DNA of 64,000 nt, taken from assembly GCF_026210795.1 (NCBI RefSeq), contig NC_089448.1, forward strand, positions 1,550,001 through 1,614,000, read 5' to 3'. The notes beneath the pieces were generated by a model, which saw nothing but the letters and a program-made list of their open reading frames with translations, made no database searches and was not told the origin of the DNA. Source of the stretch: Rhizophagus irregularis (taxonomy: Eukaryota > Glomeromycota > Glomeromycetes > Glomerales > Glomeraceae). Both the position numbers and the translations under genes were made by a program. Each line of letters begins with the position of its first letter. Positions within the stretch are counted from its first letter, which is position 1. Below, in pieces: positions 6,882 to 59,821 of the stretch.

Positions 6882-8402
6882 ATGTCCATAATCAATAAAG
6901 ATACTCTTTTCTTGATATTTGAAAAATTACAAGAAGATCCTAAATCACTATTTTCATGTCTAATGGTCAATAGACTTTGGTGTGAAACAATGGTCCCAGT
7001 TTTATGGAGAAACCCCTGGTCTTATAACGATATTAAATATAAAACCAAAAGCTATTTATTCATTATTCTTGCTAGATATTTATTTGATGATATTAAAAAA
7101 TTCATAACGGATCAAAGAATCCACTTGAATACAGATATAGTTAAATCACCCTTATTTGATTATTTATCCTTCTGTAGAAGTATCAATGTAAATACAATAA
7201 ATAGTATAATTTCTATTGGATCACCCTTACCTTATAATCAATTTTCTATGCAACAAAAATTTTATTCTCTTTTACTAAGAAAATGTCCGGAATTAAAATA
7301 TTTTGATATGAGATCACTTAAACATCAAATATTTTATTTTCCAGAAGCTAAAGTTCGTCTTGAAACACTCTGTGAATTAAAATGTGACACATTAATTGAT
7401 TCTTCATATTTTTATGGATTATCACGATCCTGTCAACTTATACAAAAACTCATCATTTTTAACATGGACCCAAGACCTAATAATGGGATTGTTAAGTTAA
7501 TTGAAGTTCAAAAAAATTTAAATCATTTTGAATGGAGTGATTCTTTTGATGATGAATATTTTATGAATGATCCTTATAAAGAAATTCTTCTTGCACTAGA
7601 AAAGAAAGCAGAAAGTCTCAAATATTTAAGTATTGTCTTCCAATATGTAGAAGGTTATGAACATACAACATTACAAGAGATACTTCCAAAACTTTATAAA
7701 TTGAAAGTATTATTTATTAATGCTTCTATTTGTTTTACTGAACATCAATTAAAACAATTAAAATTGCAGACTTATAATGAGCTTGAAATCCTTTATATGG
7801 ATGAAAATGAATTAAACTTTTATTCTAATATAGTTGAAAATAGTGGAGGACATCTCAAAAAAATTTTATTCAAACCTTATGACGTTATCGACTTTGAACT
7901 TGATCACGATTACTTTAATGAGAATTCTCTCAATTTTATTCGCAAAGTTTATAAAACTTGTCCTTTAATTGAATATTTGTCAATTTTAATTTCGTCAACA
8001 AAGGAGAATTTCTCTGAACTTGAAAAATTACTAAAAATTTGTCAAAATTTAAAGTCATTATTAATAGTTGCATTAGATGATGATGATAATTATACTAACG
8101 AAGGATTTTCTGAATATGGGAAAGAATTATTAAAAATATTAATTAGATCAGCACCAACTAATCTTAAAGAAATTAGATTAGGTAGGGAATTCAAATTTTC
8201 ATTAGAAGACCTGGAAGAATTCTTAGAAGAATGGAAGGGTAGACGTGCACTTTCCATATTTATTGTTGCTACCATTTATATGGAAGATGATTATACAGAA
8301 TTAATCAATAAATATAAAAGTAATGGAGTAATCAAAGATTTTGTATGTTTGAGTAATGCACATAGAATTAATTATTGCATAGATGACTTGAAATTATCCT
8401 AA
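6882..8402 (+). CDS. F-box protein with leucine-rich C-terminal region, gene 1
   Basis: A single open frame of 506 residues starts at the ATG of 6882. Residues 1-48 form an F-box (D-T-L-F-L-I-F-E-K-L, then S-C-L-M-V-N-R-L-W-C-E and V-L-W-R-N-P-W), the motif that binds Skp1 in SCF ubiquitin ligases. The rest is rich in leucine and isoleucine with irregular L-x-x-L spacing (for example C-P-E-L-K-Y-F-D-M and Q-N-L-K-S-L-L-I), as in degenerate leucine-rich repeats that would select the substrate. Paralogues lie at 26111-27601 and 58307-59821, with a pseudogene at 53759-55231. F-box families of this type are greatly expanded in Rhizophagus. The substrate is unknown. Confidence 0.9.
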   Translation: MSIINKDTLFLIFEKLQEDPKSLFSCLMVNRLWCETMVPVLWRNPWSYNDIKYKTKSYLFIILARYLFDDIKKFITDQRIHLNTDIVKSPLFDYLSFCRSINVNTINSIISIGSPLPYNQFSMQQKFYSLLLRKCPELKYFDMRSLKHQIFYFPEAKVRLETLCELKCDTLIDSSYFYGLSRSCQLIQKLIIFNMDPRPNNGIVKLIEVQKNLNHFEWSDSFDDEYFMNDPYKEILLALEKKAESLKYLSIVFQYVEGYEHTTLQEILPKLYKLKVLFINASICFTEHQLKQLKLQTYNELEILYMDENELNFYSNIVENSGGHLKKILFKPYDVIDFELDHDYFNENSLNFIRKVYKTCPLIEYLSILISSTKENFSELEKLLKICQNLKSLLIVALDDDDNYTNEGFSEYGKELLKILIRSAPTNLKEIRLGREFKFSLEDLEEFLEEWKGRRALSIFIVATIYMEDDYTELINKYKSNGVIKDFVCLSNAHRINYCIDDLKLS

Positions 8403-8990: not shown

Positions 8991-10950
8991 AAAAATTTTT
9001 TTTTATTTTTTTTTGAATAATTTTAAAACCATGATGATATCATACCTCAATATTTCCTAAGAAGGTAATAAGCAATTATATTGCGGTTACTAAAATAGTC
9101 ATTGGAGGCTTATCGATCTTTAATTAGATTAAATCAATTAACCTTCTTTTTTTTTATTTTGAACACGAAATTGTCTAACATGTAAACACGTAATAAATTC
9201 ATTTTCGAAAAAAAAAAAATTATATTTTTTTTTCACAATTATTTATTTATTATAATTGACAATTAATTATTTTATTTATTAATATTATTTTATTTAATTT
9301 TATTTTATATTTATTTATTATTATTGTCAATTAGGATTTTCGTATAAACGTATATTATTAATTGTCAATATTTCCTAAAAAAATAAACAATTTTAACGTG
9401 GCTGTGATTTAATTAAATTAGTAGTTGGGGGCAGATTTAGTTAAAATATAATTTTTTTTTTATTACTAATCTCATTCGTTAAAAAAAATCGTTAATTTTA
9501 CAATAAAAAATTTTTTCAATTTTTTTTATAAATAAAACCCAAGTTCGACAGGTGATATATATATATATATAGGGAGGGTGGGCGCTACTCTAAGCGATAA
9601 TGATTAATCGCAATAAGTAATGATTATTTAAAATTTCACCCAAAGTATTCCCTTAAACGTATAGGTAGGTCATGGGAATTTCATGGAGTACATATATATA
9701 AAAAATATAAAAATAAAATTAATTATAACCTTTGCGTTACAAGGTACAAATAATTAAAATAGGGAAAATCGATGACTTGTTTTCTATCCTACGATAACAT
9801 ACGACCATTACATTACCTAATTCTGAAAAACTCCTTTCTTATACACTTCTACTAATTCAACGATTTAGTAGCGGCAACGCTATTATTTTATCTTCATTAT
9901 TATCTTATTGTTGGATAATAAAGTGACATTATGATTAAATCTTGGACTTGGTACATTAACTAAACTTCCTTCACCCCAATTAAGATTTATTGTATATAAA
10001 ATAAGCACATCATTTAAAATAATATCACTATCGGTTCTTCCGCCACACCACATAAATAAAATTTTCCATTATAGTCTATAACTCCTTTTTTCTAATTGTA
10101 TTAATTCTAGTTATTAAATAAATATGATTAAGGTTTTTTCAATTAAATTGAAGCTGGATAAATAGTTTAATTTTAAGAAATTGTTGATTTTATTATAACC
10201 AAATCCATATCCGAAATTCTCTAAATAATCACCAGATTTTTGAATAAAGATTTTAATTCAAATAGTTTAGTTAAATTAATAATTTATCAAGTAAAATGAG
10301 TATCAAAAGATGAAATGAACAGATTCTAATATATTTAATTGGTTATAAGTTTAAGATTGACGTAATAAGAAATAATAATAAAATTTATAAAAATATTTGT
10401 ACTATTTAAGTTTTTTCGAAAATACTTCTAAAAAATTATTGATAATTATTTTTTCACAATTCTTTAATTAATCCGAATTTCATTCTATACTTAAACGTCA
10501 AATCATTAATATAAATAGCTACATTATTGTAAATTTAATTGGGAATTGCTAAACGTTGCCTGGGCAATTGTCGCCTGGGTTTTTTTTATTAAAATATGTC
10601 ACATGATGTACAATATATAAAGAGTAAATTTATTTAGTCTGATTTTTCAACTTGCTAATTTTCGATCGGCTAAACTTAAAATTTTTATCGCAAGATATTT
10701 TTAAAAAAAATTGTTTTGCAAACATATTTTAATATTCAAAATAATCTTATTTAATGAAATTTTATTTGCAAATATTAAAATTTAAATCATACATTTAAAA
10801 AAATCACTGTATTTATTTTTTAATGAAGCGATACAAATAAAAGAAAAGATAAGTAAATTAAAATGATCAAGAAAAAAGATGCTAATAAAAAAAATGAAAT
10901 AACAAATGAGTAATGAAAAGTAATAGAAGATGAAAGAGAGTAAAAAAGAG
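8991..10950. other. AT-rich intergenic region
   Basis: Nothing gene-like was seen. There is a TATATATATATATA microsatellite near 9557-9570 and long T runs. Confidence 0.5.
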
Positions 10951-10956
10951 TAATAA

Positions 10957-12330
10957 GTGGGAGATGAAAAGGAGCGATGGGAAGATGAAGAGGAATAATG
11001 AGAAGATGAAGAAGGGTGATGGAAGACGAAAATGGGTGATGGGAGACAAAAGGAGGGGAAAATGAAGAGGAATAATAAGAAGATGAAGAAGGGTGATGGA
11101 AGACGAAAATGAGTGATGGGAGACAAAAGGAGTGATGAAAGATGAAAAGGAGCGATGAGAAGATGAAGAGGAATAATAAGAAGATGAAGAAGGGTAATGG
11201 GAGACGAAAAAGAGTAATAAGTGGGAGATGAAAAGGAGCGATGGGAAGATGAAGAGGAATAATGAGAAGATGAAGAAGGGTGATGGAAGACGAAAATGGG
11301 TGATGGGAGACAAAAGGAGGGGAAGATGAAGAGGAATAATAAGAAGATGAAGAAGGGTGATGGAAGACGAAAATGAGTGATGGGAGACAAAAGGAGTGAT
11401 GAAAGATGAAAAGGAGCGATGAGAAGATGAAGAGGAATAATAAGAAGATGAAGAAGGGTAATGGGAGACGAAAAAGAGTAATAAGTGGGAGATGAAAAGG
11501 AGCGATGGGAAGATGAAGAGGAATAATGAGAAGATGAAGAAGGGTGATGAAAGGCGAAAATGGGTGATGGGAGACAAAAGGAGGGGATGATGAAGAGGAA
11601 TAATGAGAAGATAAAGAAGGGTGATGGAAGACGAAAATGAGTGATGGGAGACAAAAGGAGTGATGGGAGATGAAAAGGAGCGATGAGAAGACGAAGTGGA
11701 ATAATAAGAAGATGAAGAAGGGTGATGGGAGACGAAAAAGAGTAATAAGTGGGAGATGAAAAGGAGCGATGGGAAGATGAAGAGGAATAATGAGAAGATG
11801 AAGAAGGGTGATGGAAGACGAAAATGGGTGATGGGAGACAAAAGGAGGGGAAGATGAAGAGGAATAATAAGAAGACGAAAATGAGTGATGGGAGACAAAA
11901 GGAGTGATGGGAGATGAAAAGGAGCGATGAGAAGATGAAGAGGAATAATAAGAAGATGAAGAAGAGTGATGGGAGACGAAAAAGAGTAATAAGTGGGAAA
12001 TGAAAAGGAGCGATGGGAAGATGAAGAGGAATAATGAGAAGATAAAGAAGGGTGATGGAAGACGAAAATGAGTGATGGGAGACAAAAGGAGGGGAAGATG
12101 AAGAGGAATAATAAGAAGATGAAGAAGGGTGATGGGATACGAAAAGGAGTGATGAGAGACAAAAGGAGTGATTGGAGATGAAAAGGAGCGATGGTAAGAT
12201 AAAGAGGAATAATGAGAAGATGAAGAAGGGTGATTGAAGACGAAAATGAGTGATGGAAGACAAAAAGAAGCGATGGGAAGAGATGGGAGACGAAAAGGAG
12301 TGATGAGAGACAAAAAGAAATGATGGGAAG
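10957..12330. repeat. nested C-poor minisatellite with a 264-bp higher-order unit
   Basis: The plus strand is made of variants of GATGAAGAGGAATAAT, AGAAGATGAAGAAGGGTGAT and GGAGACAAAAGGAG. The marker GTGGGAGATGAAAAGG recurs at 10957, 11221, 11485 and 11749, exactly 264 bp apart, then at 11993 as GTGGGAAATGAAAAGG. The last full unit is 244 bp because about 20 bp is missing near 11873. Copies degrade after about 12100. Because 264 is divisible by 3 and the minus strand lacks stop-forming combinations, three overlapping reverse frames of 426-581 codons stay open. Their Ser/Phe/His/Leu strings are repeat artefacts. Confidence 0.93.
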
Positions 12331-26110: not shown

Positions 26111-27601
26111 ATGTCCAACCTCAATAAAGATACTCTTTTCTTGGTATTTAAAGAATTACAAGATGATTCTAAATCCCTCTTTTCATGTCTTATGGTCAGT
26201 AGACTTTGGTGTGATACTTCAATACCAATTTTATGGAGAAACCCCTGGTCCTATAGCGATATTAATTATACAAACAAAAGCTATTTATTCATTATTCTTA
26301 CTCGCTATTTATCCGACGATATTAAAAAATTCATAACAGAACGAATCCACTTGGATTCGGTTGTAGTTAAATCACTTCAGTTTGATTATTTATCCTTCTG
26401 CAGAAGTATTAATGTAGATACTATAAATATTATATTTTCTATTGGATCACCCTTGGCTTATAATAAATTTTTTATGCAACAAGAATTTTACTCTTTCTTT
26501 ATGAGAAAGTGCCCGGAATTGAAGTATCTAGATATGAGCTCTATTAAACATCAAATATTTTATTTTCCAGAAGCTAAGGCTCGTCTTGAGTCACTATATG
26601 AATTAAAATGTGATACATCTATTGATTCTTCGTACTTTTATGGATTATCGCAATTCTGTCAATATATACAGAAACTCATCATTATTAATATAGACACAAA
26701 AATTAATCATGGGATTGTTAAGTTGATTGAAGTTCAGAAGAACCTAAAGCATTTTGAATGGAAGGATGATTTTGATGATGATCTTATAGAAAATCCTTAT
26801 AAAGAAGTATTTCGTGCATTAGAAAAGAAAGCAAATAGTCTTAATTACTTAAAAATACGCCCCTTTTATATTGAATATAGATTAATACAAGAGGCACTAA
26901 TAAATTTTTATAAACTAAAAGTATTAGTAATTGATGGATATCTTTTTATTGCTGAAGAACAATTAGAACAATTGAGAATGATAGCTTATCATGAACTTGA
27001 AGTGATTAAGGTTGATTATAATCAATTAGACATAATTTCTAGTATAATTGAAAATAGTGGAAGATGTCTCAAAAAAATTTTGTTCAAACCTTATGATATT
27101 GTTGATCTTGATGATTTTGATGACGTTGATTTTAACAAGAGTTCTCTCAATTTTATTCGTAAAGTCTATGAAAATTGTCCCTATATTGAATATTTGTCAA
27201 TTATATTTCCATCATCAAAGGAGCACTTTATTGAATTTGAAAAATTATTAAAAATTTGTCAAAATTTAAAGTCATTGTTAATAGTTTTATGGAATAGAGA
27301 TGAAGTAGAAACTTATGAGAAAAATGGGGAAGAATTATTAAAAATATTAATTAGATCAGCACCAACTAATTTAAAAGAAATTAGACCTGGTGATGAATTT
27401 AAATTTTCTTTAGAAAGCTTGGAGGATTTCTTAGAAAAATGGAGGGGCAGACGTGCACTTTCTATATTCACTATTGATCCTATTTACATAAGAGAAGATT
27501 ATAAAAAACTGATCGATAAATATAAAGGTGATGGAGTAATCAAAAATTTTGAAAACTTGCATTATTTAGATTTTATTAAATATTGTGATAATGCCTCGTG
27601 A
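26111..27601 (+). CDS. F-box protein with leucine-rich C-terminal region, gene 2
   Basis: The 496-residue frame starts at the ATG of 26111 and has no intron. The N-terminal 48 residues are an F-box (D-T-L-F-L-V-F-K-E-L, S-C-L-M-V-S-R-L-W-C-D, I-L-W-R-N-P-W), expected to bind Skp1 in an SCF ubiquitin ligase. The rest aligns end to end with gene 1 (6882-8402) and gene 4 (58307-59821) and shows the same leucine-rich pattern. Conserved landmarks include S-S-Y-F-Y-G-L-S, N-H-G-I-V-K-L-I-E and L-I-R-S-A-P-T-N-L-K-E-I-R. Divergence between copies is spread over the C-terminal two thirds, as expected for changing substrate specificity. Its upstream DNA carries a MITE (25604-25830), which may alter its regulation. 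Confidence 0.9.
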   Translation: MSNLNKDTLFLVFKELQDDSKSLFSCLMVSRLWCDTSIPILWRNPWSYSDINYTNKSYLFIILTRYLSDDIKKFITERIHLDSVVVKSLQFDYLSFCRSINVDTINIIFSIGSPLAYNKFFMQQEFYSFFMRKCPELKYLDMSSIKHQIFYFPEAKARLESLYELKCDTSIDSSYFYGLSQFCQYIQKLIIINIDTKINHGIVKLIEVQKNLKHFEWKDDFDDDLIENPYKEVFRALEKKANSLNYLKIRPFYIEYRLIQEALINFYKLKVLVIDGYLFIAEEQLEQLRMIAYHELEVIKVDYNQLDIISSIIENSGRCLKKILFKPYDIVDLDDFDDVDFNKSSLNFIRKVYENCPYIEYLSIIFPSSKEHFIEFEKLLKICQNLKSLLIVLWNRDEVETYEKNGEELLKILIRSAPTNLKEIRPGDEFKFSLESLEDFLEKWRGRRALSIFTIDPIYIREDYKKLIDKYKGDGVIKNFENLHYLDFIKYCDNAS

Positions 27602-39397: not shown

Positions 39398-42120
39398 ATA
39401 ATAAAATTTATTTTCTTATTCTTTTTTAAAAATATATATATATATATATTTTTAACCATATAATTGCTGAGCATAAAAAAGTCAATAATAAACAAAAAAG
39501 GTATCAGAGATTGCATAAAACTAATTTTCCTTTATTAAATATATAAAATTTTTCACATTAATTTTTAATTTATTGTATTTTTTTTTAAATAATAAATAAA
39601 ATTAAAACAATACATCAAATGAAACAATTTATTTTTCTTCATTATTCTAATGATGATTTACAACATTTATGATAATCTCGTTTAAACAAATGCATTCTTA
39701 CATTTCTAAAATTTATGTTTTAATATTAAAAAATAATATGCTCCGATCCCTGATTGTTGATCCCGTGATGCTATTAATTAATACACTCGAATTTGTCCCC
39801 ATCAGTCCCATGTTCTGTGGTGGGTACTAAAACAAAAAAAATACTGGCTAGTTGATCTCTTAAAAATCCATGGCTATCCAATTATAACAAGAGAAAGTTA
39901 AGTAATACAGTTAGTGTAAATCAAATCATTAGATGATTTTACATTAGTTAATATATTTAAATGTACTGTATTTTATATATTAAATATACATGTTAATAAA
40001 TTAATATTACTTTGTTTGTATGTATATAAACTTAATATCAATAAAGCATATATAAATCATTAAAAAAAAAAAAAAAAAAAAATAAATTAATATTACAATT
40101 ACGATAATAATATACTGTGACATTATTTCAACAATCTCAATGCGATGTTTTTAAGATTTATGTAATAATATAGTGTTAACACTGTAATGATATGCCATTA
40201 TTTTTACTGTTACTTAATGTAAGTATATTGTGACATATCATTATAGGAATATAAACTGGAATAATATTGGTATTTTATTGATACCATATCAGCATCATAT
40301 TAACATCAGAAAAAATTTTATAGTTTCTGCAAAGCTTTATGTTAATTTCCAAGTGTGGACCAGGCTGGATTGTAAAATAGTAGGGGTCAATGCAGACCTC
40401 TAGTTCTCTATCTGAAAATGACCTCTAAGTCACTATGTGCAATGTACTTGTAAATCAAATAGAATAAAGTTAATAAACTTTGGTTTATCAAGATAAATAA
40501 CTTATATGTAATAAACCAGCAAATATCTTTGGTGTAGCACCTTACATTGACCCAAAATATTTAAATCATATTAAAAAATAAAAGTCAGCTAAATACAATC
40601 AACTCATAAAAAATTTTACATTATTTATTTTTAATTTTATACATTAGAAATAATTTTATATACTTATTGGTATTTTGACAATTTATATTTATCGCCATTT
40701 TCAAAATGGTGTGTGCAACGTCGATCATCTGATTAAAAAAAATTCCCAGATTTTCACCGAATATTTTAAACCCAATATATGTTTCGCATTCTTTTCTAAC
40801 TATTACCCAAGATTCCCTGCCAGAACTTGCGTTAATAGGTTTGTTTACAGCTTTTCCTTGAGTTATAAGTCAATTTATTATGTACAGTTTTGAGTTTCTT
40901 TCGTCCAAAGTTTGAGATTATTGGCGATTATTGAGTTTACCATCAATAACTAATGATTTTTTCATTTTCTCTAAAACTTTAACGTTCTTACATTTTTTTT
41001 TCTATTCACAGATACCATTTTCTCTCTTTTTATAATAATTATAATCAATTACATTAATAGTGTTAATAAATTTTGTAAGTAATTTTAAATTTTTTGCCTA
41101 TTACGTTATATTGCATTATTATAAAATAATTTAGCATTTTTGGTTAATTAAAAGGTTTAGAAGGCTATATAAAGTTTTTCTGTAAATATTGGAACGTTTA
41201 GAATTTAGATTTGTTGAATTTTAACTGTGTATGCTTATTTTTATAATTTTATAACAATAGATATTTTATGCTTCAAAACAAGTTAAGAGTTAAGTTAAAA
41301 AATTAAATAAGTTATTTAACAGGTATAGTGTTGCTTAGACTAAAGTTTTATCAAGTTTAAATGGTTATTTTAAAAAATTCTAAACATTTTTATAATAATG
41401 ATATTGACTCTGTATTTATTTTCTCTTTATCTTTACAGAAATTCTATATGAAAATTTGGAATTTTTATATTGTAAAATTGAAGCCTTATGAGGATTTAAT
41501 TTGTAATTGTATAAAGGAGAGATTGAAATTATAAAACAAATAAAATTTTAAATAAAAATTATTTTTTTCGCGGAGCAATGATTTTTTTCACTTATTGTCA
41601 CATGACCGTTATAATATTTGATTGGCCAATTTTGTTTATTTTGATCATATGACCAATAATCATAATCAGTATTCGAATTTCATGCATGATCGAGCTGCAT
41701 ATACCATTTTGAAAACGGCGATAATAATTGAAAAGTTATGAATAAAAAAGATTTATTTAAATTACAAACTAAGAAATTTGTAAAATATTTACTACTCTAG
41801 CTTTAGTGTTTAAATAATTCTTAAAAAAGAATACAATATTTAATATTTGGATAAAATATAAAAAAAAAGGAATTATTTAAATTACAAACTAAGAATTTTG
41901 TAAAATATTTTACTAGTACTCTAACCTTAGTGTTTAAATAAATCCAAAAAGAAGAACAATTTCTGTTGAATGTATGATATCAAATATCACTTAAAAACTA
42001 CAAATCCTTTTTTGAAACACAAACTATTAGCTAGTTAATTATCATCTGTTTTAATATATAAATAATTAAATAAATAAAGTTAATTAATTTGCAAGATTAA
42101 TTTTTATATATCATAGCACA
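39398..42120. other. AT-rich intergenic region
   Basis: Contains a (TA)n microsatellite at about 39430-39450 and the small retroposed insertion at 40011-40080. No gene was supported; the frame at 40675-40893 has no features of interest. Confidence 0.45.
39995..40096 (+). mobile_element. short 5'-truncated retroposed insertion with 16-bp target duplication
   Basis: The direct repeat AATAAATTAATATTAC is perfect at 39995-40010 and 40081-40096. Between them lie 70 bp ending in a 19-A tract (40062-40080) with an AATAAA signal at 40040-40045. Target duplication, polyadenylation signal and poly(A) tail together are the signature of target-primed reverse transcription of an mRNA or LINE 3' end. Confidence 0.8.
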
Positions 42121-42123
42121 TAC

Positions 42124-43268
42124 CTAATAACCCCAATCTTCAATTATACAATCATTCAAATCTTCACTTTCACTTTCAAGAATTTCATTCAACATTTTAC
42201 TAGTAAAATTATGTAAGCAACTTGTATAATATGCTTTAGGATGAGATTTAGCAGCAAGATTGTTATGCCCAACTGGTGCATTTATAAATTCCATAATATT
42301 GCTTTTTAATTCTTCACTGACTTTATAAGGATGGAAAATCCAATTTTCAATAATTTTTAGTGCTTCTTTAGAAGATGGTCTTTTTAATGGATCTTCATTC
42401 CAACATTTTTTCATTAAATCTACATAACAATGTGGAGTATTTTCAATAATTTCAGGACGTTCACCTTTACAAATACTTAAACTAAGTTGAATATCATGTG
42501 CTCTATTATTAAATGGTGGTACTCCAGATGTAAGTTCCCACATAATCATAGAAAAACTATATATATCACTAGCTGGAGTATAAGATTTTCCTCTTAAAAC
42601 TTCAGGAGCCATAAATGGTATAACACCATAAATATCATTTTTCAAAAACGATTTTACAAGTTGACATGATCCTAAATCACTAACATAAATTTTGTCCTTA
42701 TTCTTATTATTATGATTTAAAATATTGCCATCATGAAAATCACAATGAATAATATTATGTTCATGCATATCATTAAGTCCAGAAATAATTTCGTACAACA
42801 TATATAATTTTTGGTTCCAATTATTTTCAACTATTCTTGGTAAATTTTCTCTTAAATTACCTTTATTTGCATAATCCATTACTACCATATATTTCAAAGT
42901 ATTTGGATCCTCTGTAAATCCATAAAAATATATAATATCATTCGAATATAAAATACTTGTATGATATTTCCACTATAAAAAATAATAATAATTATTAATA
43001 GAAATAAATCTTAATTTTAAATTAAAAATAGAAAATAATATACTATCATACTTCTTTTAAAAATTCATTTAAATTTTCATTTAAATTCTTATGGCATTTA
43101 AGAATTACTTCTTTGTCTTTATTATTCTTTAACCAAGTAGCTTTATATATAGTACCAAATCCTCCTTCATTAAAATATTCAACAGTTTTAAATTTGTTAT
43201 AAGGAATCCATTTTAATCTATTTTTAAGAATAAAATCATCCATAATTGCATTTCCACTTTTTCCAAAT
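42124..43268 (-). CDS. protein kinase (TKL-like), kinase-domain exons
   Basis: Two exons (43268-43052 and 42972-42124) are separated by a 79-nt GTATGA...TATAG intron in phase 0. From the internal methionine at 43243 the protein is 346 residues. It has the glycine loop N-E-G-G-F-G-T-I-Y (25-33), the ATP-binding lysine in V-I-L-K (about 49), the catalytic loop H-C-D-F-H-D-G-N, metal-binding D-L-G, A-P-E in the activation segment, D-I-Y-S-F-S-M-I-M-W-E-L, and C-W-N-E-D-P-L-K-R-P. HRD is replaced by H-C-D, so it is a non-RD kinase. The exon is open upstream of 43243 (F-G-K-S-G-N-A-I before M-D-D-F) to an acceptor at 43269. That S-G-N...I-D-D-F-I linker is usual in Rhizophagus kinases, so coding probably continues into the array at 43320-51960. 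Confidence 0.9.
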
Positions 43269-46200
43269 CTATAAATTTAAATAGTTAAAAATATATTATA
43301 ACTTGTATTACAATTAACTAAAATAAATTACTTACTCTAAAATTTAAATCAGAATTCAATGTAATATAGATCTTAGTTTTTGGATAAATATATAATAACC
43401 TATAATTTACAACTTACCAACTAAAGTGATAGATATTTTTTTAAATGAAAAAATTTAGTTAACAAATAAATATTATACAAACTTTATAACAATAGAAATA
43501 TAAATATCTTACAAGCTATATCATAAATAATTTTTTAAATAAAGAATTCAAGTTATATATAAATAAGTACTAATAATAGAATTAAATAAATAACTTGTAA
43601 CTTACAATCTATTAAATAAAGAAATTAGTTAGTTAAATTATATGTAAATAAGTAATAATAGAATTACATAAATAACTTACTCCCTATATTATTTAATAAT
43701 TTTTTAAATAAAGAAATTAGTTAGTTTAAATTATAATTATATAAATAAGATAAATAAGTAATAATAGAATTAAATAAATAACTTACTTCCTATATTATTT
43801 AATAATTTTTTAATAAAGAAATTAGTTAGTTTATAATAGAATTAAACAAATAACTTATAACTTACGATCTATTAAATAAAGAAATTAGTTAGTATAAATT
43901 ATATGTAAATATTAATAAGCAATAATAGAATTAAATAAATAACTTATGGCTTACCAGCTAAATAAATTACAAAATAATTTTTAAGATAAAGAAATTAGTT
44001 AGTTTAATTATATGTAAATATTATATAAATAAATAATAATAGAATTAAATAAATTAATTTATGAATTACCAACTAAAATAAATTACAAAATAATTTACAA
44101 ATAAAAAAATTAGTTAGTCTAAATTATATATAGTAATAATAGAATTAATAAATAACTTATGGCTTACAATCTATTTAAATAAAGAATTTAGTTAGTTTAA
44201 ATTGTAATATTATAAATAAGTAATAATAGAATTAGATAAATAACATATTATCTAATAATTTTTTAAATAAAGAAATTAGTTATTAAACAAATAACTTATA
44301 ACTTACAAACTATTAAATAAAGAAATTAGTTAGTTTAAATTTTATATGTAAATATTATATAAATAAGCAATAATAGAATTAAATAAATAACTTATTATGG
44401 CTTACCAGCTAAAACAAATTACAAAATAGTTTTTTAAATAAAGAAATTAATTAGTTTAATTATATGCAAATATTATATTAATAAGCAATAGTAATAGATA
44501 AATAACTTATGAATTACCAACTAAAACAAATTACAAAATAATTTTTAAATAAAGAAATTAGTTAGTTTAAACTATATATAATATTATATAAATAAGTAAT
44601 AATAGAATAAATAAATAACTTACTCTCTATATTATTAAATAATTTTTTAAATAAAGAATTAGTTAGTTTAAATTGTAATATTATAAATAAGTAATTTTTT
44701 AAATAATATGTATAAAATAATATTATAAAAATAAGTAATAATAGGATTAAACAAATAACTTATAACTTACGATCTATTAAATAAAGAAATTAGTTAGTTT
44801 AAATTGCATGTAAATATTATAACAATAAGTAAATAATCGAATTAAATAAATAACTTACATTCTATTAGTTAATAATTATAAATAAGAAATTAGTTAGTTA
44901 GTTATACGTAAGTATTATATAAATAAATAATAACAATAAAATTACAAAATAATTTTTAAATAAAGAAATTAATTAGTTATATGTAAATTATAAATAAATA
45001 ACAGTAGAATTAAATAAATAACTTATGACCTACCAACTAAAATAAATTATTTAATAATTTTTTAAATAAAGAAATTAGTTAGTTTAAATTATATGTAAAT
45101 ATTATAACAATAAGTAATAATAGAATTAAATAAATAACTTACGCCCTATATTATTTAATAATTTTTTAAATAAAGAAATTAGTTAGTTATATGTAAGTAT
45201 TATATAAATAAATATATTAATATTAAATAAATAACTTATGACTTACCAACTGCAAAATAATTTTTTAAATAAAGAAATTAATTAGTTATATGTAAATTAT
45301 AAATAAATAATAATAGAATATCTTACCTGCTATATTATTTAATAATTTTTAAATAAAGAAATTGGTTAGTTTAAATCATAAATAAATACTATTACATAAA
45401 TATGTAATAATAGAATTAAATAAATAACTTACGCCCTATATTATTTAATAATTTTTAAATAAAGAAATTGGTTAGTTTAAATTATATGTAAATATTATAT
45501 AAATAAGTAATAATAGAATTAAATGAATAACTTACATGCTATATTATTTAATAATTTTTTACATAAAGAAATAAGTTAGTTATATGTAAGTATTATATAA
45601 ATAAATAATAATATTATTAAATAAATAACTTATGACTTACCAACTAAATAAATTACAAAATAATTTTTTAAATAAAGAATTGATTAGTTATATGTAAATT
45701 ATAAATAAATAATAATAGAATTAAATAAATAACTTACACGCTATATTATTTAATAATTTTTTAAATAAAGAAATTAGTTCATTTAAATTATATGTGAATA
45801 TTACATAAAATAAGTAATAAAAGATCAAATAAATGACTTACTCCCTATATTATTTAATAATTTTTTAAATAAAGAAATAAGTTAGTTATATGTAAGTATT
45901 ATATAAATAAATAATAATAATATTAAATAAATAACTTATGACTTACCAACTAAATAGATTACAAAATAATTTTTTTAAATGAAGAAATTGATTAGTCATA
46001 TGTAAATTATAAATAGATAATAATAGAATTAAATAAATATTTTATGGCTTACCAGCTAAAATAAATTACAAAATAGTTTTAAAATAAAGAAATTAGTTAG
46101 TTTAAATTATATATGCAAATATTATAACAATGAGTAATAATAGAATTAAGATAAATAACTTACTCCCTATATTATATAATAATATTTTAAATAAAGAAAT

Positions 46201-49200
46201 TAGTTAGTTTAAACTATATGTAAATATTATAACAATAAGTAATAATAAAATTAGATAAACAACTTACTCCCTATATTATTTAATAATGTTTTAAATAAAG
46301 AAATTAGTTAGTTTAAATTATATGTAAATATTATAACAATAAGTAATAATAGAATTAAATAAATAACTTATAACTTACAATCTATTAAAATAAAGAATTT
46401 AATTTGTTTAAATTATATATAAATTATATAATAAATAACTTGTAACTTACAATCTAGTATTAAATAAAGAAATTAGTCAGTTTAAATTATATGTAAATAA
46501 GTAATAATAGAATTACATAAATAACTTACTCCCTATATTATTTAATAATTTTTTAAATAAAGAAATTAGTTAGTTTAAATTATATGTAAATATTATATAA
46601 ATGTAATAATAGAATTACATAAATAACTTACTCCCTATATTATTTAGTAATTTTTTAAACAAAGAAATTAGTTAGTTTAAATTATATGTAAATATAATAT
46701 AAACAAGCAATATTAGAATTAAATAAATAACTTACAAACTATTAAATAAAGAAATTAGTTAGTTTAAATTATATGTAAATATTTATAACAATAAGTAATA
46801 ATAGAATTAAATAATAGCTTACAAACTATTAAATGTGAAAATTAGTTAGTTTAAATTATATGATAAATAGTAAGAATTAAATAAATAACTTACTCTCTAT
46901 ATTATTTAATAATTTTTTAAATAAAGAAATTAGTTAGTTTAAATTATAATTATATAAATAAGTAATAATAGAATTAAATAAATAACTTACTCCCTATATT
47001 ATTAATAATTTTTTAAATAAAGAAATTAGTTAGTTTAAATTATATGTAAATATTATATAAATGTAATAATAGAATTAAATAAATAACTTACACCCTATAT
47101 AATTAAATAATTTTTTAATTAAAGAAATTAGTTTAAAATATATAAATATTATATAAATAAGTAAATAAATAACTTAATAGCTTACGATCTATTAAATAAA
47201 GAAATTAGTTAGTTCAAATTATATATAAATATTATATAAATAAGTAATAATAGAATAAATAAATAACTTATAACTTACGATCTATTAAATAAAGTAATTA
47301 GTTAATTTAATTATAGGTAAATATTATATCAATAAGTAATAATAGAGCTAAATAAATAACTTATAACTTACGATCTATTAAATAAAGTAATTAGTTAATT
47401 TAAATTATATGCAAATATTATATAAATAAGCAATAATAGAATTAAATAAATAACTTATGGCTTACCAACTAAAATAAATTACAAAGTAGTTTTTTTAAAT
47501 AAGAAAATTACTTTGTTTAAATTATATGCAAATATCATATAAATAAGTAATAATAGAATTAAATAAATAAATTATAAGCTATAACTTACGAGCTATTAAA
47601 TAAAGAAATTAGTTAGTTTAAATTACTATATGTAAATATTATATAAATAAATAACTTACTCTCTATATTATTTAATAAAGAAATTAGTTAGTTTAAATTA
47701 TTTATAAAAAATATAAATAAGTAATAATAGAATTAAATAAATAACTAATAACTTACGATCTATTAAATAAAGAAATTAGTTAGTTTAAATTATAAGTAAA
47801 TATTATATAATAAGTAATAATAGAATTAAATAAATAACTATTAACTTACGACCTATAAAATAAAGATATTAGTTAATTTAAATTATATGCAAATAATATA
47901 TAAATAAGTAATAATAGAACTAAATAAATAACTAATAACTTACGATCTATAAAATAAAGAAATTAGTTAGTTTAAATATATGTAAATATTATATAAATAA
48001 GTAATAATAGAATTAGATAAATAACTTACTATCTATATAATCAAATGATTTTTTAATTAAAGAAATTAGTTTAAATTATATGTAAATATAATATAATAAG
48101 TAATAATAGAATTAAATAATAACTTACAAACTATTAAATGTAGAAATTAGTTAGTTTAAATTATATGTAAATATTATATAAATATGTAATTATAGAATTA
48201 AATAAATAACTTACTCTCTATATTATTAATAATTTTTAAATAAAGAAATTAGTTAATTTAAATTATATTTAAGTAATAATAGAATTAAATAAATAACTTA
48301 CTCCCTATTATTTATTAATTTTTTAAATAAAGAAATTAGTTAGTTTAAATTATATGTAAATTTTATATAAATGTATTAAATAAATAACTAATAACTTACG
48401 AACTGATAAATAAAAAATTAGTTAGTTTAAATATTATATAAATGAGTAATAATAGAATTAGATAAATAACTTAACTTAAATAAAAAAATTAGTTAAGTTA
48501 TATGTAGATATTATACAAATAAGTAAGAATAGATTTAAATAAATAACTATGACCTACCAACTAAAATAAAATTTTTTAATAAAGAAATTAGTTAGTTTAA
48601 ATTATATATAAATGATATATAAATATGTAATTATAGAATTGAATAAATAATCTACCCCCTATATTATTTAATAATTTTTTAAATAAAGAAATTAGTTCAT
48701 TTAAAATATATAAATATCGTATAAATAACTTGACAGAAACTTCAAGATCGTAGCGATAGCTTAATGCACAGTAACTGCATTATAAATTCCAGTCTGGAAT
48801 GTGTGGCAGATTATGCTGAATATATTAGCTTTAGAGTAAGGAGTGATGGTTAGTGGTTTAAGTGTCACATGATCATGTGCAAGCCTGAGGTTCAAAAACA
48901 CTATTTATCTGAGAGACGTGTTTTTTTTAGTGGTCCAAAACTTATTTGTCACCTGTTATTTGTTACTGATTTTGGTGTAACCTGTCACACATTTTTGGAT
49001 GTGCGTTATAAATACATAGTGACCACATTATGTAATCGTAAATAAATTATATATATGCAGTTAATGTGCATTAAGCCATCGCTATGATCTTAAAAAGAAG
49101 TAATAATAGAATTAAATAAACTACTTACTCCCTATATTATTTAATAATTTTTTAAATAAAGAATTCAAGTTATATATAAATAAGTAATAATAGAATTAAA

Positions 49201-51943
49201 TAAATAACTTATAACTTACAATCTATTATATAAAGAAATTAGTTAAGTTATATGTAAATATTTTATAAATAAGTAATAATATAGTTAAATAAATAACTTA
49301 CTCTCTATATTATTTAATAATTTTTAGATAAAGTAATTAGTTAGTTTAAATTATATAAAATATTGTATAAATAAGTAATAATAGAATTAAATAAATAACT
49401 AATAACTTACGATCTATTAAATAAAGTAATTAGTTAGTTTAAATATATGTAAATATTATATAAATAAGTAATAATAGAATTAGATAAATAACTTACTATC
49501 TATATTATTTAATAATTTTTTTAATAAAGAAATATATTAGTTTAAATTATATGAAATATTATATAATAAGTAATAATAGAATTAAATAATAACTTACAAA
49601 CTATTAAATATAGAAATTAGTTAGTTTAAATTATATGTAAATATTAGATAATAAGTAATAATAGAATTAAATAATAACTTACAAACTATTAAATATAAAA
49701 ATTAGTTAAGTTATATGTAAATATTATATAAATAAGTAATAATATAATTAAATAAATAGCTTACTCGCTATATTATTTAATAATTTTTTAAATAAAGTAA
49801 TTAGTTAGTTTTAATTATATGTAAATATTGTATAAATAATAAGTAATAATAGAATTATATAAATAACTAATAACTTACAATCTATTAAATAAAGAAATTA
49901 GTTAGTTTAAATCATATGTAAATATTATATAAATAAGTAATAATAGAATTAGATAAATAACTTACTATCTATATTATTTAATTATTTTTTTAATAAAGAA
50001 ATTAGTTAGTTTAAATTATATGTAAATATTATATAATAAGTAATAATAGAATTAAATAATAACTTACAAACTATTAAATAAAGAAATTAGTTAGTTTAAA
50101 TTATATGCAAATATTATATAATAAGTAATAATAGAATTAAATAATAACTTACAAACTATTAAATATAGAAATTAGTTAGTTTAAATTATGTGTAAATATT
50201 ATATAATAAGTAATAATCATCAAATAAATAACTTATGACCTACCAACTAAAATAAATTATAAAATAATTTTTTAAATAAAGAAATTAATTTAAATTATAT
50301 GTAATTATTATATAAATATGTAACCATAGAATTGAATAAATAACTTACTTGCTACATTATTTAATAATTTTTTAAATTAAGAAATTATTTATTTCAAATT
50401 ATATGTAAATATTACATAAATAAGTAATAATAGAACTAAATAAATAACTTACACCCTATATTATTTAATAATTTCAAATAAAGCAATTAGTTAGTTTAAA
50501 TTATATATAAATATCATATAAATTAGTAATAATAGAATTAAATAAATAACTTATAACTTACGATCTATTAAATAAAGAAATTAGTTAGTTCAAATTATGT
50601 GTAAATATTATGTAATAAGTAATAATAAACTCAAATAAATAACTTATGACCTACCAACTAAATTAAATTACAAAATAATTTTTTAAATAAAGAAGTTAGT
50701 TAGTTTAAATTATATGTAAATATTATATAAATATGTAATTATAGAATTGAATAAATAACTTACTCCCTATATTATTAAATAAAGAAATTAGTTGGCTCAA
50801 ATTATGTGTAAATATTACATAAATAAGTAATAATAGAATTAAATAAATAACTTACACCCTATATTATTTTATAATTTTTTAAAGAAAATAGTTAGTTTAA
50901 ATTATATATAGACATTATGTAAATAAGTAATAATAGAATTAAATAAACTACTTACTACTCCCTATATTATTTAATAAAGAAATTAGTTAGTTTAAATTAC
51001 ATGTAAATATTACAATAATTAAGTAGTAATAGAATTAAATAAACTACGTACTCCCTATATTATTTAATAAAGAAATTAGTTACTAGTTTAAATTACATGT
51101 AAATATTACATAAATAAGTAATAATAGAATTAAATAAACTACTTACTCCCTATATTATTTAATAATTTTTTAAATAAAGAAATTAGTTAGTTCAGTTATA
51201 CTGTATATAAATAAGTAATAATAGAATTAAATAAATAACTTACTTCCTATATTATTTAATAATTTTTTAAATGAAGAAATTGGTTAGTTTAAATAAGTAA
51301 TAATAAAGTTAAATAAATAACTTATGACTTACCAACTAAAACAAATTACAAAATAATTTTTTAAATAAAGAAATTAATTAGTTTATAAATGTTATATAAA
51401 TAAGTAATAATAATAGAATAAATAAATAACTTATGACTTACCAACTAAAACAAATTACAAAATAATTTTTTAAATAAAGAAATTAGTTAGTTTAAATTAT
51501 ATAAATAATAGAACTATGAATACCAATACCATATTATAACTTACACCCTATAGTATTATTAATTATTATTAATTAGTTAGGTATAAATATGATATAAATG
51601 TATTTACTGTAAGTTAACATATATTACTTACAATCTAGTTATTTAAATTAAGAATATAATTAGTTAAATTATATTAAAATATTAAACAAATAAATACAAT
51701 ATATATATTGTAACTTACCATCTGTAATATAATTAATTATTAAATAGTTATTTAAATAAAGAATTTAGTTATTTGAATGTTACGTAAAATAAATGAAGCA
51801 AATTATTAAAAATTTATATAACTGATAACTTACTAACTATAGTATTATTAATCATTAAATAAATTATTTAGTTATATGGAATACAATAAAAAATAATGAG
51901 TAATTGAGTAATTCATCATCATTCAATTATATAAACTTACGAG
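43269..51943 (-). CDS. candidate micro-exon array of the kinase gene (84 micro-exons)
   Basis: On the minus strand the motif TAG-NNN-GTAAG recurs 83 times between 51943 and 43418, and once as TTTTAG-A-GTAAG at 43336. Micro-exons in transcript order include 51943-51941, 51836-51834, 51721-51719, and so on to 43420-43418. At least 24 different trinucleotides occur, most often GGA, TTG, ATC, TTT and ATT. The site at 50956-50961 can be read as 6 nt. Intervening sequences are about 80-110 nt, each with an AACTAAC branch site. The 5' exons deliver phase 1, the array adds 3n+1 nt, and the kinase exon requires phase 2: the frame closes. No stop arises in phase 1. Whether the spliceosome recognises 3-nt exons here is unproven; a non-spliced intron minisatellite is the alternative. 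Confidence 0.5.
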
Positions 51944-51960
51944 CTAAAAAAATATTTAAT
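43320..51960 (-). repeat. tandem array of ~100-bp intron-like units
   Basis: About 85 imperfect copies of one unit occupy roughly 8.6 kb. On the plus strand a unit reads AATAATAGAATTAAATAAAT, AACTTAC, NNN, CTATATTATTTAATAATTTT, TAAATAAAGAAATTAGTTAG, TTTAAATTATATGTAAATAT. Units group into sub-types by the trinucleotide and its flank (tcc-CTATATTATTT, gat-CTATTAAAT, caa-CTAAAATAAATTACAAAAT). Units at about 44240, 44945 and 48475 have lost the donor or acceptor. A few donors vary (GTAGG at five sites, GTAAT at two), and acceptors are CAG at 45250, 48403 and 51722. One transposon-like insertion lies at 48744-49091. Confidence 0.95.
48744..49091. mobile_element. TIR element with tRNA-like promoter boxes inside the array
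   Basis: Inverted ends of about 37 bp (left from 48744, right to 49091; AAGATC-x-TAGCGAT-x-GCTTAATGCACA) bound 348 bp unrelated to the array. Inside are an A-box-like TGGTTAGTGG (48847-48856) and a B-box-like GGTTCAAAAAC (48889-48899) around the palindrome CACATGATCATGTG, suggesting tRNA-derived sequence. No target duplication was found because the flanks are themselves repetitive. Confidence 0.65.
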
Positions 51961-52080
51961 ATAATTTTTATATAATATAGTTAGTCTAAATTATATTTGC
52001 ATATTACATAAGGTATAATTATAGTTGGTATTTGAGTTGTTTATAAATAAAAATTTAATATTTTAGCTTGTTTGATATAC

Positions 52081-52448
52081 CTTTAGATTCCTTGGTATTA
52101 CTTCCTTCAAACTCCTCAATACTACTTCTTTCAAATTCTTCAGTGCCATTCCCCTCAAATTCTCTAGTGCCACTTTCTTCAAATCCTTCAATATTACTGG
52201 GAACTAGTTTTGTTATATTGCAAATTTGGTTTAATTATATTTGATTATTTACAATTAAATTTTTTTAATAAATAAAAATCTTTATATTTCATCTTTGTTT
52301 TGTATATTATATTTACCTTTAGGTTCCTTGATATTATACAAATCTAGTTTTATTATATTGCAAGTTTGTTTTAAAAATTTTGAATAATTTAATTTATATT
52401 ATTATATATTTATGCTATATGCTTACCTTCACCAATACATTGACCCAT
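52081..52448 (-). CDS. 5' exons of the kinase gene (M-G-Q-C start, octapeptide repeats)
   Basis: Three exons are predicted on the minus strand: 52448-52427 (22 nt, ATG to GAAG, donor GTAAGC), 52343-52317 (27 nt, acceptor AACTAG, donor GTAAAT) and 52203-52081 (123 nt, acceptor AACTAG, donor GTATAT). All junctions are phase 1 and the joined frame is open. The product begins M-G-Q-C-I-G-E, compatible with N-myristoylation at Gly2 and palmitoylation at Cys4, which would anchor the kinase to a membrane. Exon 3 encodes four octapeptide repeats of the form F-E-x-(S/N)-x-(T/I)-x-E. Exons 2 and 3 both end in K-E-(P/S)-K, hinting at exon duplication. The next coding sequence downstream in the same phase is the micro-exon array. 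Confidence 0.6.
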
Positions 52449-53540
52449 TACTATATTATTAAAATTTTCTCTCTAATTGGAAAAGATTAAATATCTTTTT
52501 TATATTTATTAAACGTCTTTATTAGTATAAATAAGGTAATAATATTTATGCAAAATGTATTATATGCAAAATGTTGATCACAACCACCGCATATATATGA
52601 CAAATCAAATTTATACATCCGGAATTTCGGAATGCAAATCTTATTGTTGCGTAAAATCGGATGAAAATTTCTAAATACATGATATATAGACTTAGTTACT
52701 TTACAATTTATTTAAAGTGCAAAGATAATTGTAAATATATCTGTATAATACATATAATACATTTTTTATTTTAAAATATATATAATTTAAAATCACGTGA
52801 TCACATCCAATTTTTCGCATGGGACTATTATCTTGAGAAAAAAAGAAAAAATAAATATTTTTTTTTCTTAAAATACATAAAATATAATCATTTATTTCAA
52901 GTTAGCTTGATAAAATTAATACTTAAGTAATGTAATTTTACACTTGTTGAACACTTAATTTTTTTAAGCCTATTTTATTTAGCCAAAATACTCTATGAAA
53001 TTGAAAATAAATATGGCACATAAGCAATATTAATACTTTTATTTCTCTTTGTTCCTGGTTGTTTTTTTTCATTTTTCTTTTATCATTTTTTATTTATTTG
53101 TTAAATTATTTTCTATCAACTTATTAGTACATTTTTCTTTATATTTTCATTGTCAGGTTTCTCTTTTGTATTGTTATTTTAGTTCATATTGAATAATAAA
53201 GTATAAATTTTATTCAATAATTTTTAAATAAATAATGCTTAAAATCATTATAGATGCATAACTTTACGGTTTAATATTATATTTATCAAATAAATTTTAT
53301 AATTTAAATAAAATGGTTTTTGTAAAAAAAATGTGTTTAACGGAAATTTTAAAAAATGCGTAACAAAAAATTTAAGAAAAACATGTTGTTTTTAATTTTT
53401 GACGCATTACGTCATATAGAATAATTATCACATGAGGTATGGTGGTTAAAATATCATCCGCAGTTCGGTGATATTTCAACCCCCACCCAACAACTATTAT
53501 TTAGTATTCACAGTGATAATTGTAAAATATAATTGTATCA
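52449..53540. other. spacer between kinase 5' end and F-box pseudogene
   Basis: AT-rich; it should contain the kinase promoter (minus strand) but no defined motif was recognised. An imperfect inverted repeat (GGTGG-TTAAAATATCA ... TGATATTTCAA-CCCCCACC) lies at about 53441-53488. Confidence 0.45.
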
Positions 53541-58170: not shown

Positions 58171-58306
58171 TTACATAAATGAAATTCCCATTTTACTTAT
58201 ATCTCTACTTCGAAATTATTTTATTAATAATAGTCATAATATTTCTAAAAAATATTTCACTTTCAAAAGATTATTTTAAGCCTCTCTTTTGTTTTTTTTT
58301 AATAAA

Positions 58307-59821
58307 ATGCCCAATCTCAATAAAGACATTCTTTTTTTGATATTTGAAGAATTACAAGATGATTCAAAATCCCTCTTTTCATGTCTAATGGTTAGTAGAC
58401 TTTGGTGTGAAACAGCTGTTCCAGTTTTATGGAGGGACCCTTGGTCTTATAGTGGTATCATTTATGGAAATAAAAGCTACTATTTATTTATCATTATTAC
58501 TAGCTATTTTTTTGATAATATTAAAAATTTCATAACAGAGGAAAGAATCCAATCTCCTTCAGTTATAGTTAAACCTATCCTGTTTGATTATTTATCCTTC
58601 TGCAGAAGTATTAACATAAGTATTATATATAATATAATTTCTATTGGATCATCCTTAGCTTATAATCAATTTATTATACAACAAGAATTTTATTATTTCT
58701 TTATGAACAAATGTCAAGAGTTGAAATATTTAGATATGACATCAATTGAACATCAAATATTTTACTTTCCAGAAGATAAGACTTGTCTTGAGTCAATTTG
58801 TGAATTAAAATGTGATACATCTATTGATTCTTCATACTTTTATGGATTATCCCAATTCTGTCAACGTATACAGAAACTCGTCATTATTAATATAGACTCA
58901 AACCCTAATCATGGGATTGTTAAATTAATTGAAGTCCAGAAGAACTTGAAGCATTTTGAATGGAAAGATGATTTTGACTATGATTTTCATACAGAATATC
59001 TTTATAAAGAAAGTTTCCTTGCTCTAGAAAAGAAAGCAGAAAGTCTCAATTATTTAAGGATATATTTCTATTATGTAGATGATCATGATTATACATTATT
59101 GTTAGAGATACTTCTAAAATTCTATAAACTAAAGGTATTAATAATTGGTGAACATCTTTTTCTTAATAAAGAACAATTAGAAAAATTGAAAAAGCAGGTT
59201 TATCCCGAACTTGAAATCCTTAATATAGAGTATAATAGATTAAATACAGTTTCTAGTATAATTGAAAATAGTGGAGGGCGTCTCAAAAAAATTTTGTTCA
59301 AACCTTATAACATTATCGACTTTGAATTTGGTGACGATAACTTTAATGAAAATTCTCTCAATTTTATTCGTAAAGTTTATGAAAATTGTCCTTCAATTGA
59401 ATATTTGTCAATTTTAATTTCACCAACAAAGGAGATTTTCTCTGAATTTGAAAAATTATTAAAAAGATGTCAAAATTTAAAGTCATTATTAGTTATATTA
59501 GATAATTATGATGATAATTACGAAGACGATTTAAAAGATGGAGGAGAATTATTAAAAATATTAGTTAGATCGGCACCAACTAATTTTAAAGAAATTAGAT
59601 TTGGTAATGAATTCAAATTTTCTTTAGAAATGTTGGAAGAATTCTTAGAAAATTGGAGAGGAAGAAGTGAACTTTCTTTATTTACTATTGATCCTATTTA
59701 CATAAGCGGGGATTATACAAAACTGATTAATAAATATAAAATTGATAAAGTAATCAAAGATTTTAAATATTTGAGTAATGAATACTATAGATTTAATTAT
59801 TGTATAGATGATCTTGATTAA
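58307..59821 (+). CDS. F-box protein with leucine-rich C-terminal region, gene 4
   Basis: The first ATG is at 58307; the open frame extends six codons further upstream, but only from a TTG. The 504-residue product begins M-P-N-L-N-K-D with an F-box in residues 1-48 (I-L-F-L-I-F-E-E-L, S-C-L-M-V-S-R-L-W-C-E, V-L-W-R-D-P-W), expected to bind Skp1. The remainder is the same leucine-rich region as genes 1 and 2. Landmarks such as S-S-Y-F-Y-G-L-S, N-H-G-I-V-K-L-I-E and F-N-E-N-S-L-N-F-I-R-K-V-Y are conserved. It resembles gene 2 more than gene 1 in the middle third. No lesions were seen. Confidence 0.9.
   Translation: MPNLNKDILFLIFEELQDDSKSLFSCLMVSRLWCETAVPVLWRDPWSYSGIIYGNKSYYLFIIITSYFFDNIKNFITEERIQSPSVIVKPILFDYLSFCRSINISIIYNIISIGSSLAYNQFIIQQEFYYFFMNKCQELKYLDMTSIEHQIFYFPEDKTCLESICELKCDTSIDSSYFYGLSQFCQRIQKLVIINIDSNPNHGIVKLIEVQKNLKHFEWKDDFDYDFHTEYLYKESFLALEKKAESLNYLRIYFYYVDDHDYTLLLEILLKFYKLKVLIIGEHLFLNKEQLEKLKKQVYPELEILNIEYNRLNTVSSIIENSGGRLKKILFKPYNIIDFEFGDDNFNENSLNFIRKVYENCPSIEYLSILISPTKEIFSEFEKLLKRCQNLKSLLVILDNYDDNYEDDLKDGGELLKILVRSAPTNFKEIRFGNEFKFSLEMLEEFLENWRGRSELSLFTIDPIYISGDYTKLINKYKIDKVIKDFKYLSNEYYRFNYCIDDLD

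Follow-up and report, generated by a model that had tools for sequence, protein, structure and literature searches.

Introner elements, with their many near-identical introns, and genes built of very small exons are the described systems closest to the one treated here. In the micro-exon genes (MEGs) of schistosomes, tiny symmetrical exons make up most of the coding region, the ratio of nonsynonymous to synonymous substitutions (dN/dS) exceeds 1 in some families, and alternative splicing is given as the source of variants (PMC4350168). An exon of only three nucleotides is known to be spliced, as micro-exon 8 of Drosophila homothorax (PMC7392893), which makes this exon size feasible. This article concerns a stretch of 64,000 nucleotides of the Rhizophagus irregularis genome (G000:C20:1,550,001-1,614,000, on contig NC_089448.1), called the window throughout, whose minus strand carries about 80 such candidate exons in a row ahead of a kinase domain. 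The gene very probably belongs to a kinase family in which tandem units, each made of an intron of about 96 nt and a 3-nt exon, encode the linker that separates the kinase domain from a short N-terminal region. For the published R. irregularis assembly, an expanded kinase repertoire of 2,533 members is reported, and the available part of the account describing it makes no mention of micro-exons or intron arrays (PMC10234402). The array-bearing kinases are presumably part of this repertoire.

How then does the locus compare with these systems? As in micro-exon genes, tiny exons in multiples of three nucleotides follow one another, here as 1,384 strict sites over 45 loci, with other spacings rare. 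In contrast to the schistosome genes, nearly all exons of the array are exactly 3 nt long, the introns are near-identical tandem copies, the variation is genomic, and joins that skip exons are not protected from stop codons. Whereas homothorax offers one such exon in one gene, dozens stand in a row here in each of many genes. The near-identity of the introns recalls introners, but the spacing is fixed at 3 nt, and the introns are tied to one gene family and not dispersed as far as tested. No description of tandem arrays of one-codon exons was found among the matches listed in the open-licence literature (preprints excluded), a result that does not demonstrate absence.

Predicted structure of the gene in the window

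The strict unit is defined as YAG-NNN-GTARG, that is, three nucleotides between an acceptor and a donor. When the reverse complement of 43,200-52,500 was scanned for YAG-N(k)-GTARG with k from 0 to 12, 78 sites were found at k=3, one each at k=0, k=1 and k=6, and none at any other value; the k=0 site coincides with a k=3 CAG unit. Adjacent strict sites lie 70-124 nt apart. Both strands of the whole window hold 80 strict sites, 78 of them in the array, against an expectation of 2.25 ± 1.51 and a maximum of 7 in 100 dinucleotide shuffles of the window; Markov resamples of the array never gave more than 2 (200 resamples). The features of the predicted gene, in the order in which it would be transcribed, are as follows:

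52427-52448, minus strand: exon 1, 22 nt, starting with ATG, coding for MGQCIGE and ending in phase 1
52317-52343, minus strand: exon 2, 27 nt, both ends in phase 1
52081-52203, minus strand: exon 3, 123 nt, both ends in phase 1, with an EEFEGSNT-type coding repeat
43418-51943, minus strand: array of 78 strict 3-nt exons, the first CTC (51943-51941) and the last TTG (43420-43418)
43336-43336, minus strand: 1-nt exon, A, shifting the frame from phase 1 to phase 2
43052-43268, minus strand: kinase exon 1 (FGKSGN...FLKE), entered in phase 2
42124-42972, minus strand: kinase exon 2, with the stop codon

Spliced in this way, the model runs from the ATG to the kinase stop codon as a single open frame of 490 codons with the 78 strict units, or 496 when five further units are included (one GTACG donor, one GTAGA donor, two GTAAT donors and one 6-nt exon). 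The array would thereby contribute 234 nt (strict units) to 252 nt (weak units included) to the transcript, besides the single A. Exons 1-3 end in phase 1 and the kinase exon is entered in phase 2, so the 1-nt exon supplies the difference; this A at 43,336 is the sole 1-nt site found in the region, and it sits immediately before the kinase exon. The same phases put a direct join of exon 3 to the kinase exon out of frame. The joined kinase exons, tested for the window gene only, match PF07714 PK_Tyr_Ser-Thr (E 5.9e-40, 137.6 bits, cut-off 23.1), and the kinase exon carries internal ATG codons. First exons of 22 nt corresponding to exon 1 were recognized by eye in loci L003, L009, L010 and L012. 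The N-terminal MG, which we take to be a possible myristoylation start, is not common to all copies, others beginning with MAHSNNK, MACSNNK or MDQHIGK. An insert resembling a miniature inverted-repeat transposable element (48741-49094, with 40-nt inverted ends that are 90% complementary) lies inside one intron of the array, and the micro-exons flanking it fit one open frame.

The original prediction for this stretch, an array of some 84 micro-exons on the minus strand, is close to the present count: 83 with the four weak-donor units and the 6-nt exon, plus the 1-nt exon. Its figure of at least 24 different triplets is also recovered, as 23 in strict units and GGG in a weak-donor unit. An AACTAAC branch site in nearly every unit had been claimed as well, and this was too strong: of the 70 window introns between adjacent strict sites, 42 have exact AACTAAC and 61 have CTAAY. 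Two further points need correction. Each triplet had been taken for one codon, whereas in phase 1 it supplies the two last letters of one codon and the first letter of the next. The kinase gene is present as proposed, but its architecture belongs to a large kinase family rather than to one gene.

Avoidance of stop codons across the joins

The whole genome assembly (146,748,485 bases in 32 contigs) was searched, and 45 kinase loci were compared: the window and 44 others fetched from the search listings, hence not a random choice, among them six (L035-L040) taken as more distant kinases (56-74% identity). Because the flanking exons place the micro-exons in phase 1, each codon of the array would be split by an intron, the last base of one triplet being joined to the first two of the next across a median of 96 nt. 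In an array that is not spliced or translated, triplets ending in T should precede AA-, AG- and GA-triplets as composition dictates, and expectations were obtained by shuffling triplets within loci. Joins were counted solely between strict sites no more than 140 nt apart.

Not a single stop codon occurs in the 688 neighbour joins of the first 21 loci, where 25.5 ± 3.9 are expected, nor in the 434 joins of 20 held-out loci (15.2 ± 3.0 expected, the smallest of 5,000 shuffles giving 4). Over these 41 loci, the count is 0 of 1,122 against 40.6 ± 5.0, and it is nil for each codon taken separately (27.1 TAG, 7.5 TAA and 6.2 TGA expected). Phase 2 holds 151 stops in the same loci, with 125.8 expected, and phase 0 contains 6 stop triplets. 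When all 45 loci are included, none of the 1,203 forward joins is a stop, against 50 with the same neighbours reversed and 162 in phase 2; reversed stops occur in 20 loci, forward stops in none. Finally, the 403 distinct ordered pairs of triplets yield no forward stop and 27 reversed ones, 18.0 being expected. At the level of genomic sequence, the phase and the order of joining can be regarded as demonstrated, and the pattern indicates that the micro-exons are coding, are joined consecutively in order, and are translated. Among the predicted array residues, R, D, F, Y, N and W are abundant.

Divergence of triplets and introns

Introns that are identical over their full length form 54 groups, covering 174 of 1,203 units. 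In 41 loci they provide 362 pairs (139 between loci and 223 within loci), which are not independent of each other. The downstream triplet differs in 67% of the between-locus pairs and 26% of the within-locus ones, the upstream triplet in 90 and 58%, respectively; with each group counted once, more than one downstream triplet is seen in 22 of the 54. On within-locus minimum spanning trees (292 edges with at most 4 intron edits), introns accumulate 0.0168 differences per nt and the three exon positions 0.257, 0.137 and 0.322, or 15, 8 and 19 times more, although such trees pick the closest introns, which lowers the intron rates and inflates the ratios. On these estimates the triplets would diverge roughly 8-19 times faster than the introns, and their rapid change is demonstrable in the genomic copies themselves. 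An ungapped comparison of nearest-neighbour units gives mismatches of 3.4-3.7% in the splice-signal columns, which were not used in choosing partners, and 26% in the triplet; because those partners were picked by intron columns, which biases intron rates down, the intron-anchored counts are preferred. Long-tract alignments between arrays again find the triplets most variable, and carry little weight because unit types are mixed in them.

Of 209 differences, the fewest (40) fall on the middle base of the triplet, which in phase 1 is the third base of a codon. This is suggestive of selection on amino acids, yet it also tracks intron type. As for the kinase exons, they look constrained, with a median dN/dS of 0.63 and values above 1 in 14 of 119 pairs, in a sample of 16 of the 45 (21 having been missed by the pattern and 8 more not being 72 codons long). 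Close pairs within this sample have dissimilar arrays, as in the window gene and L003: their kinase exons are close (proportion of synonymous differences, pS, 0.08), and their arrays, of about 80 versus 31 residues, have by eye little in common beyond the start. Since the triplets change fast, the linker peptide would be hypervariable between paralogues. Block repeats are found in the array peptide, such as DHPAY in L015, and suggest that arrays grow and shrink by duplication of units.

The family across the genome

A three-unit stretch used as a DNA query has at least 494 matches in the genome (40 of 435 candidates scored), and by eye the unit clusters among the matches listed lie mostly upstream of same-strand kinase-exon matches. 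Each of the 45 loci has at least one strict site, with one in L038, ten in L036 and 81 in L013, so the structure is demonstrably family-wide. Spacing is tightly fixed: 41 loci hold 1,283 strict sites at exactly 3 nt against 4, 40, 2, 3, 2 and 6 at spacings of 0, 1, 2, 4, 5 and 6 nt. The 40 sites at spacing 1 amount to one per locus except in L039, which is also the only exception among the 45 (44 have the 1-nt site); the single nucleotide is mostly A, with T in L010 and L037.

Genome-wide, the motif ATWTAG-NNN-GTAAGTTAT has 1,811 matches against 4 for its backwards control, and with four N between the same flanks (ATWTAG-[four N]-GTAAGTTAT) both motif and control have 6. As the 3-nt form covers 401 of the 1,283 strict units in 41 loci, the genome total may be extrapolated to about 5,800 strict units. 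The motif of the 1-nt exon, with up to one mismatch, occurs in 97 copies (3 for the control), of which 89 have a kinase exon downstream on the same strand, the distance being 64-99 nt in 88 cases and 391 nt in the remaining one. Among the matches listed, the other 8 have no kinase exon within 400 nt, and none of the 97 has one on the opposite strand within that distance. Conversely, the motif accompanies 89 of the 150 listed kinase exons. Of 58 exact matches to one unit type, 55 have a listed same-strand kinase exon no more than 10 kb downstream; the other three belong to an array at G000:C23:888306-893500, with no listed kinase exon within 10 kb, and the 7.2 kb read from 893,300 on show none either. 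There is no intact retrocopy among 150 of the 151 kinase-exon matches, as none has an open frame longer than 124 aa (no other search was aimed at retrocopies).

The introns carry the features of U2-type splicing, namely a GT donor, a branch site and an AG acceptor, the donor and acceptor being imposed by the way in which the sites are defined. Between 60 and 8 nt from the end of 1,122 introns, CTAAY is present in 900, YTRAY in 1,047 and exact AACTAAC in 502. Intron lengths modulo 3 are distributed 361/364/397, meaning that the introns are not kept in frame.

Irregular units

Some gaps between strict sites would give a stop codon if joined directly: 5 of 120 in 41 loci, plus 3 in L041 and L043. 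By eye, seven of these eight contain a weak-signal unit whose use removes the stop, with donors GTAAAT in L001, GTATGT in L030 and GCAAGT in L017 and L035, with GTATGT or GTAAT plus GTAAAT donor units in the two gaps of L041, and with an AAG acceptor in that of L043. In the gap of L019, a 2-nt exon is found. The array of L041 (G000:C2:17500-26500) is diverged, and in most of its extra units a GTAAAT donor follows an exon whose last letter is G (AAG or ATG), as though this G compensated for the one lost from the donor.

Several observations weigh against a coding array spliced unit by unit. By estimate, the strict splice pattern is missing from 173 of 1,415 unit slots. The frame would be broken if two 4-nt sites in L017 and the 2-nt exons in L019 were used, and odd spacings also occur in L022 (one of 2 nt), L031 (one of 4 nt), L029 (two of 5 nt) and others. 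With the weak units included, 2 stops remain in 1,356 triplets of the 41 loci, in L016 and L019; that of L016 vanishes solely if a GTAAATT unit is skipped, while L001 needs such a unit to be used. A stop codon lies inside the kinase exon at C31:354,096 (L024) and at C6:1,478,097 (L011), so that some copies are possibly dead or pseudogenes, and the array at C23:888-893 kb lacks a kinase exon in the 7.2 kb read. The shuffles themselves disregard the relatedness of units, a weakness answered in part by the reversed-order control and the count of distinct pairs. Lastly, stops in phase 2 exceed expectation, and TTT is in excess (94 vs 56.4 in 41 loci), next to a depletion of GGG codons (37 vs 61.3 expected); this non-random order of triplets is attributed in part to common array starts (ALNDWF or ALDDWF) and ends.

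Alternative explanations

The alternative that survives best, itself improbable, is that the array serves to produce many isoforms by omission of exon subsets. It is compatible in part with a coding array joined in order: leaving out a 3-nt exon preserves length modulo 3, and because many arrays hold weak-signal units, some skipping is likely. Yet joins that skip one, two, three or four exons produce stops in 33 of 984, 36 of 866, 22 of 766 and 26 of 682 cases, close to the shuffled rate of 40.6 in 1,122. Non-neighbour joins run into stops about as often as chance predicts, and there is no sign of selection in favour of combinatorial skipping. What had been said of the array, that any subset could be skipped in frame, holds for length and fails for stop codons, from which only neighbour joins are free; the further suggestion of a generator of combinatorial linker variants is not borne out, even if skipping itself may occur.

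Could identical introns instead have been transposed, in the manner of introners, into a once-continuous coding exon? This question concerns the origin of the array and is compatible with its being spliced and translated as proposed here. It is favoured by the full-length identical introns, which in the 139 between-locus pairs often flank different triplets (67% downstream, 90% upstream). However, the 55 of 58 exact unit matches found near kinase exons argue against a scattering of these introns over other genes, insertion would not be expected to give a constant spacing of 3 nt in phase 1, and block repeats of the DHPAY kind point to tandem duplication. Such an origin ranks next and is decidedly unlikely.

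A third possibility, more unlikely again, is that of a minisatellite lying within a single long intron, or ahead of a kinase with a start codon of its own, with splice-like motifs simply inherited along with the repeat. The units are plainly tandem repeats, many introns are near-identical, and the internal ATG codons of the kinase exon could offer a start. But in a satellite nothing would keep stops out of a single direction and a single phase across units of about 100 nt, its triplets should diverge like its introns and not several times faster, and removing the whole array would join exon 3 to the kinase exon out of frame. The initial view that this looks like a gene with some 80 exons of three nucleotides and not like an ordinary minisatellite, its triplets varying while splice signals are kept, is supported by the stop-codon test and the open frame through the whole model.

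The weakest alternative is a host array with non-coding exons, whose tandem introns would be processed into small RNAs as tandem repeated introns host small nucleolar RNAs in some genes, and it can practically be dismissed since no Rfam family was found at E up to 1 in 42,000-53,500 and the avoidance of stops indicates coding exons.

Other features of the window

A Tc1/mariner-type transposase ORF (open reading frame) without internal stop lies at 2550-3581 (343 aa; PF01498, PF13358). Three ORFs of about 500 aa each (6882-8402, 26111-27601 and 58289-59821) have similar N-termini and seem to be paralogues; a weak F-box-like match, below the cut-off, was obtained for one of them and none for the other two. 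A GA-rich minisatellite at 10943-12265 has a 264-bp unit and long open frames on the minus strand.

Proposed mechanism and significance

A 3-nt exon cannot hold two splicing complexes simultaneously, and removal of the introns is therefore probably stepwise. It would proceed by intron definition, one neighbour at a time, each step adding three nucleotides to a growing exon. Tandem duplication, or unequal recombination by way of the near-identical introns, may add and remove units; as each unit of an intron plus 3 nt amounts to a whole codon, the frame is kept. The likeliest role for the array, and this is a guess, would be that of a fast-evolving recognition or docking segment on the kinase. 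In a broader and tentative picture, to which we give rather less than even weight, genes would diversify with one codon as the unit of exon shuffling: the introns would be the recombination substrate by which codons are gained, lost and reordered, the triplets would be under strong diversifying selection, and about 100 kinases would each acquire a distinct recognition peptide, which might serve this mycorrhizal fungus in sensing self/non-self or partners.

Such arrays would easily escape gene annotation: standard RNA-seq aligners have difficulty with 3-nt exons, so current gene models may misrepresent the N-terminal part of these kinases. Nanopore RNA reads are reported for R. irregularis DAOM197198, with minimap2 set to introns of at most 3,000 nt (PMC10234402). 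If the splicing proposed here is true, single genes would have more than 80 exons of three nucleotides, with thousands of such exons in one genome, far beyond the usual view of exon recognition. These genes would then be a natural substrate for learning how the spliceosome handles exons without room for complexes at both splice sites. They would also represent a route of protein evolution in which a codon and its intron form the duplicating unit, allowing a peptide to be lengthened, shortened and reordered without frameshifts.

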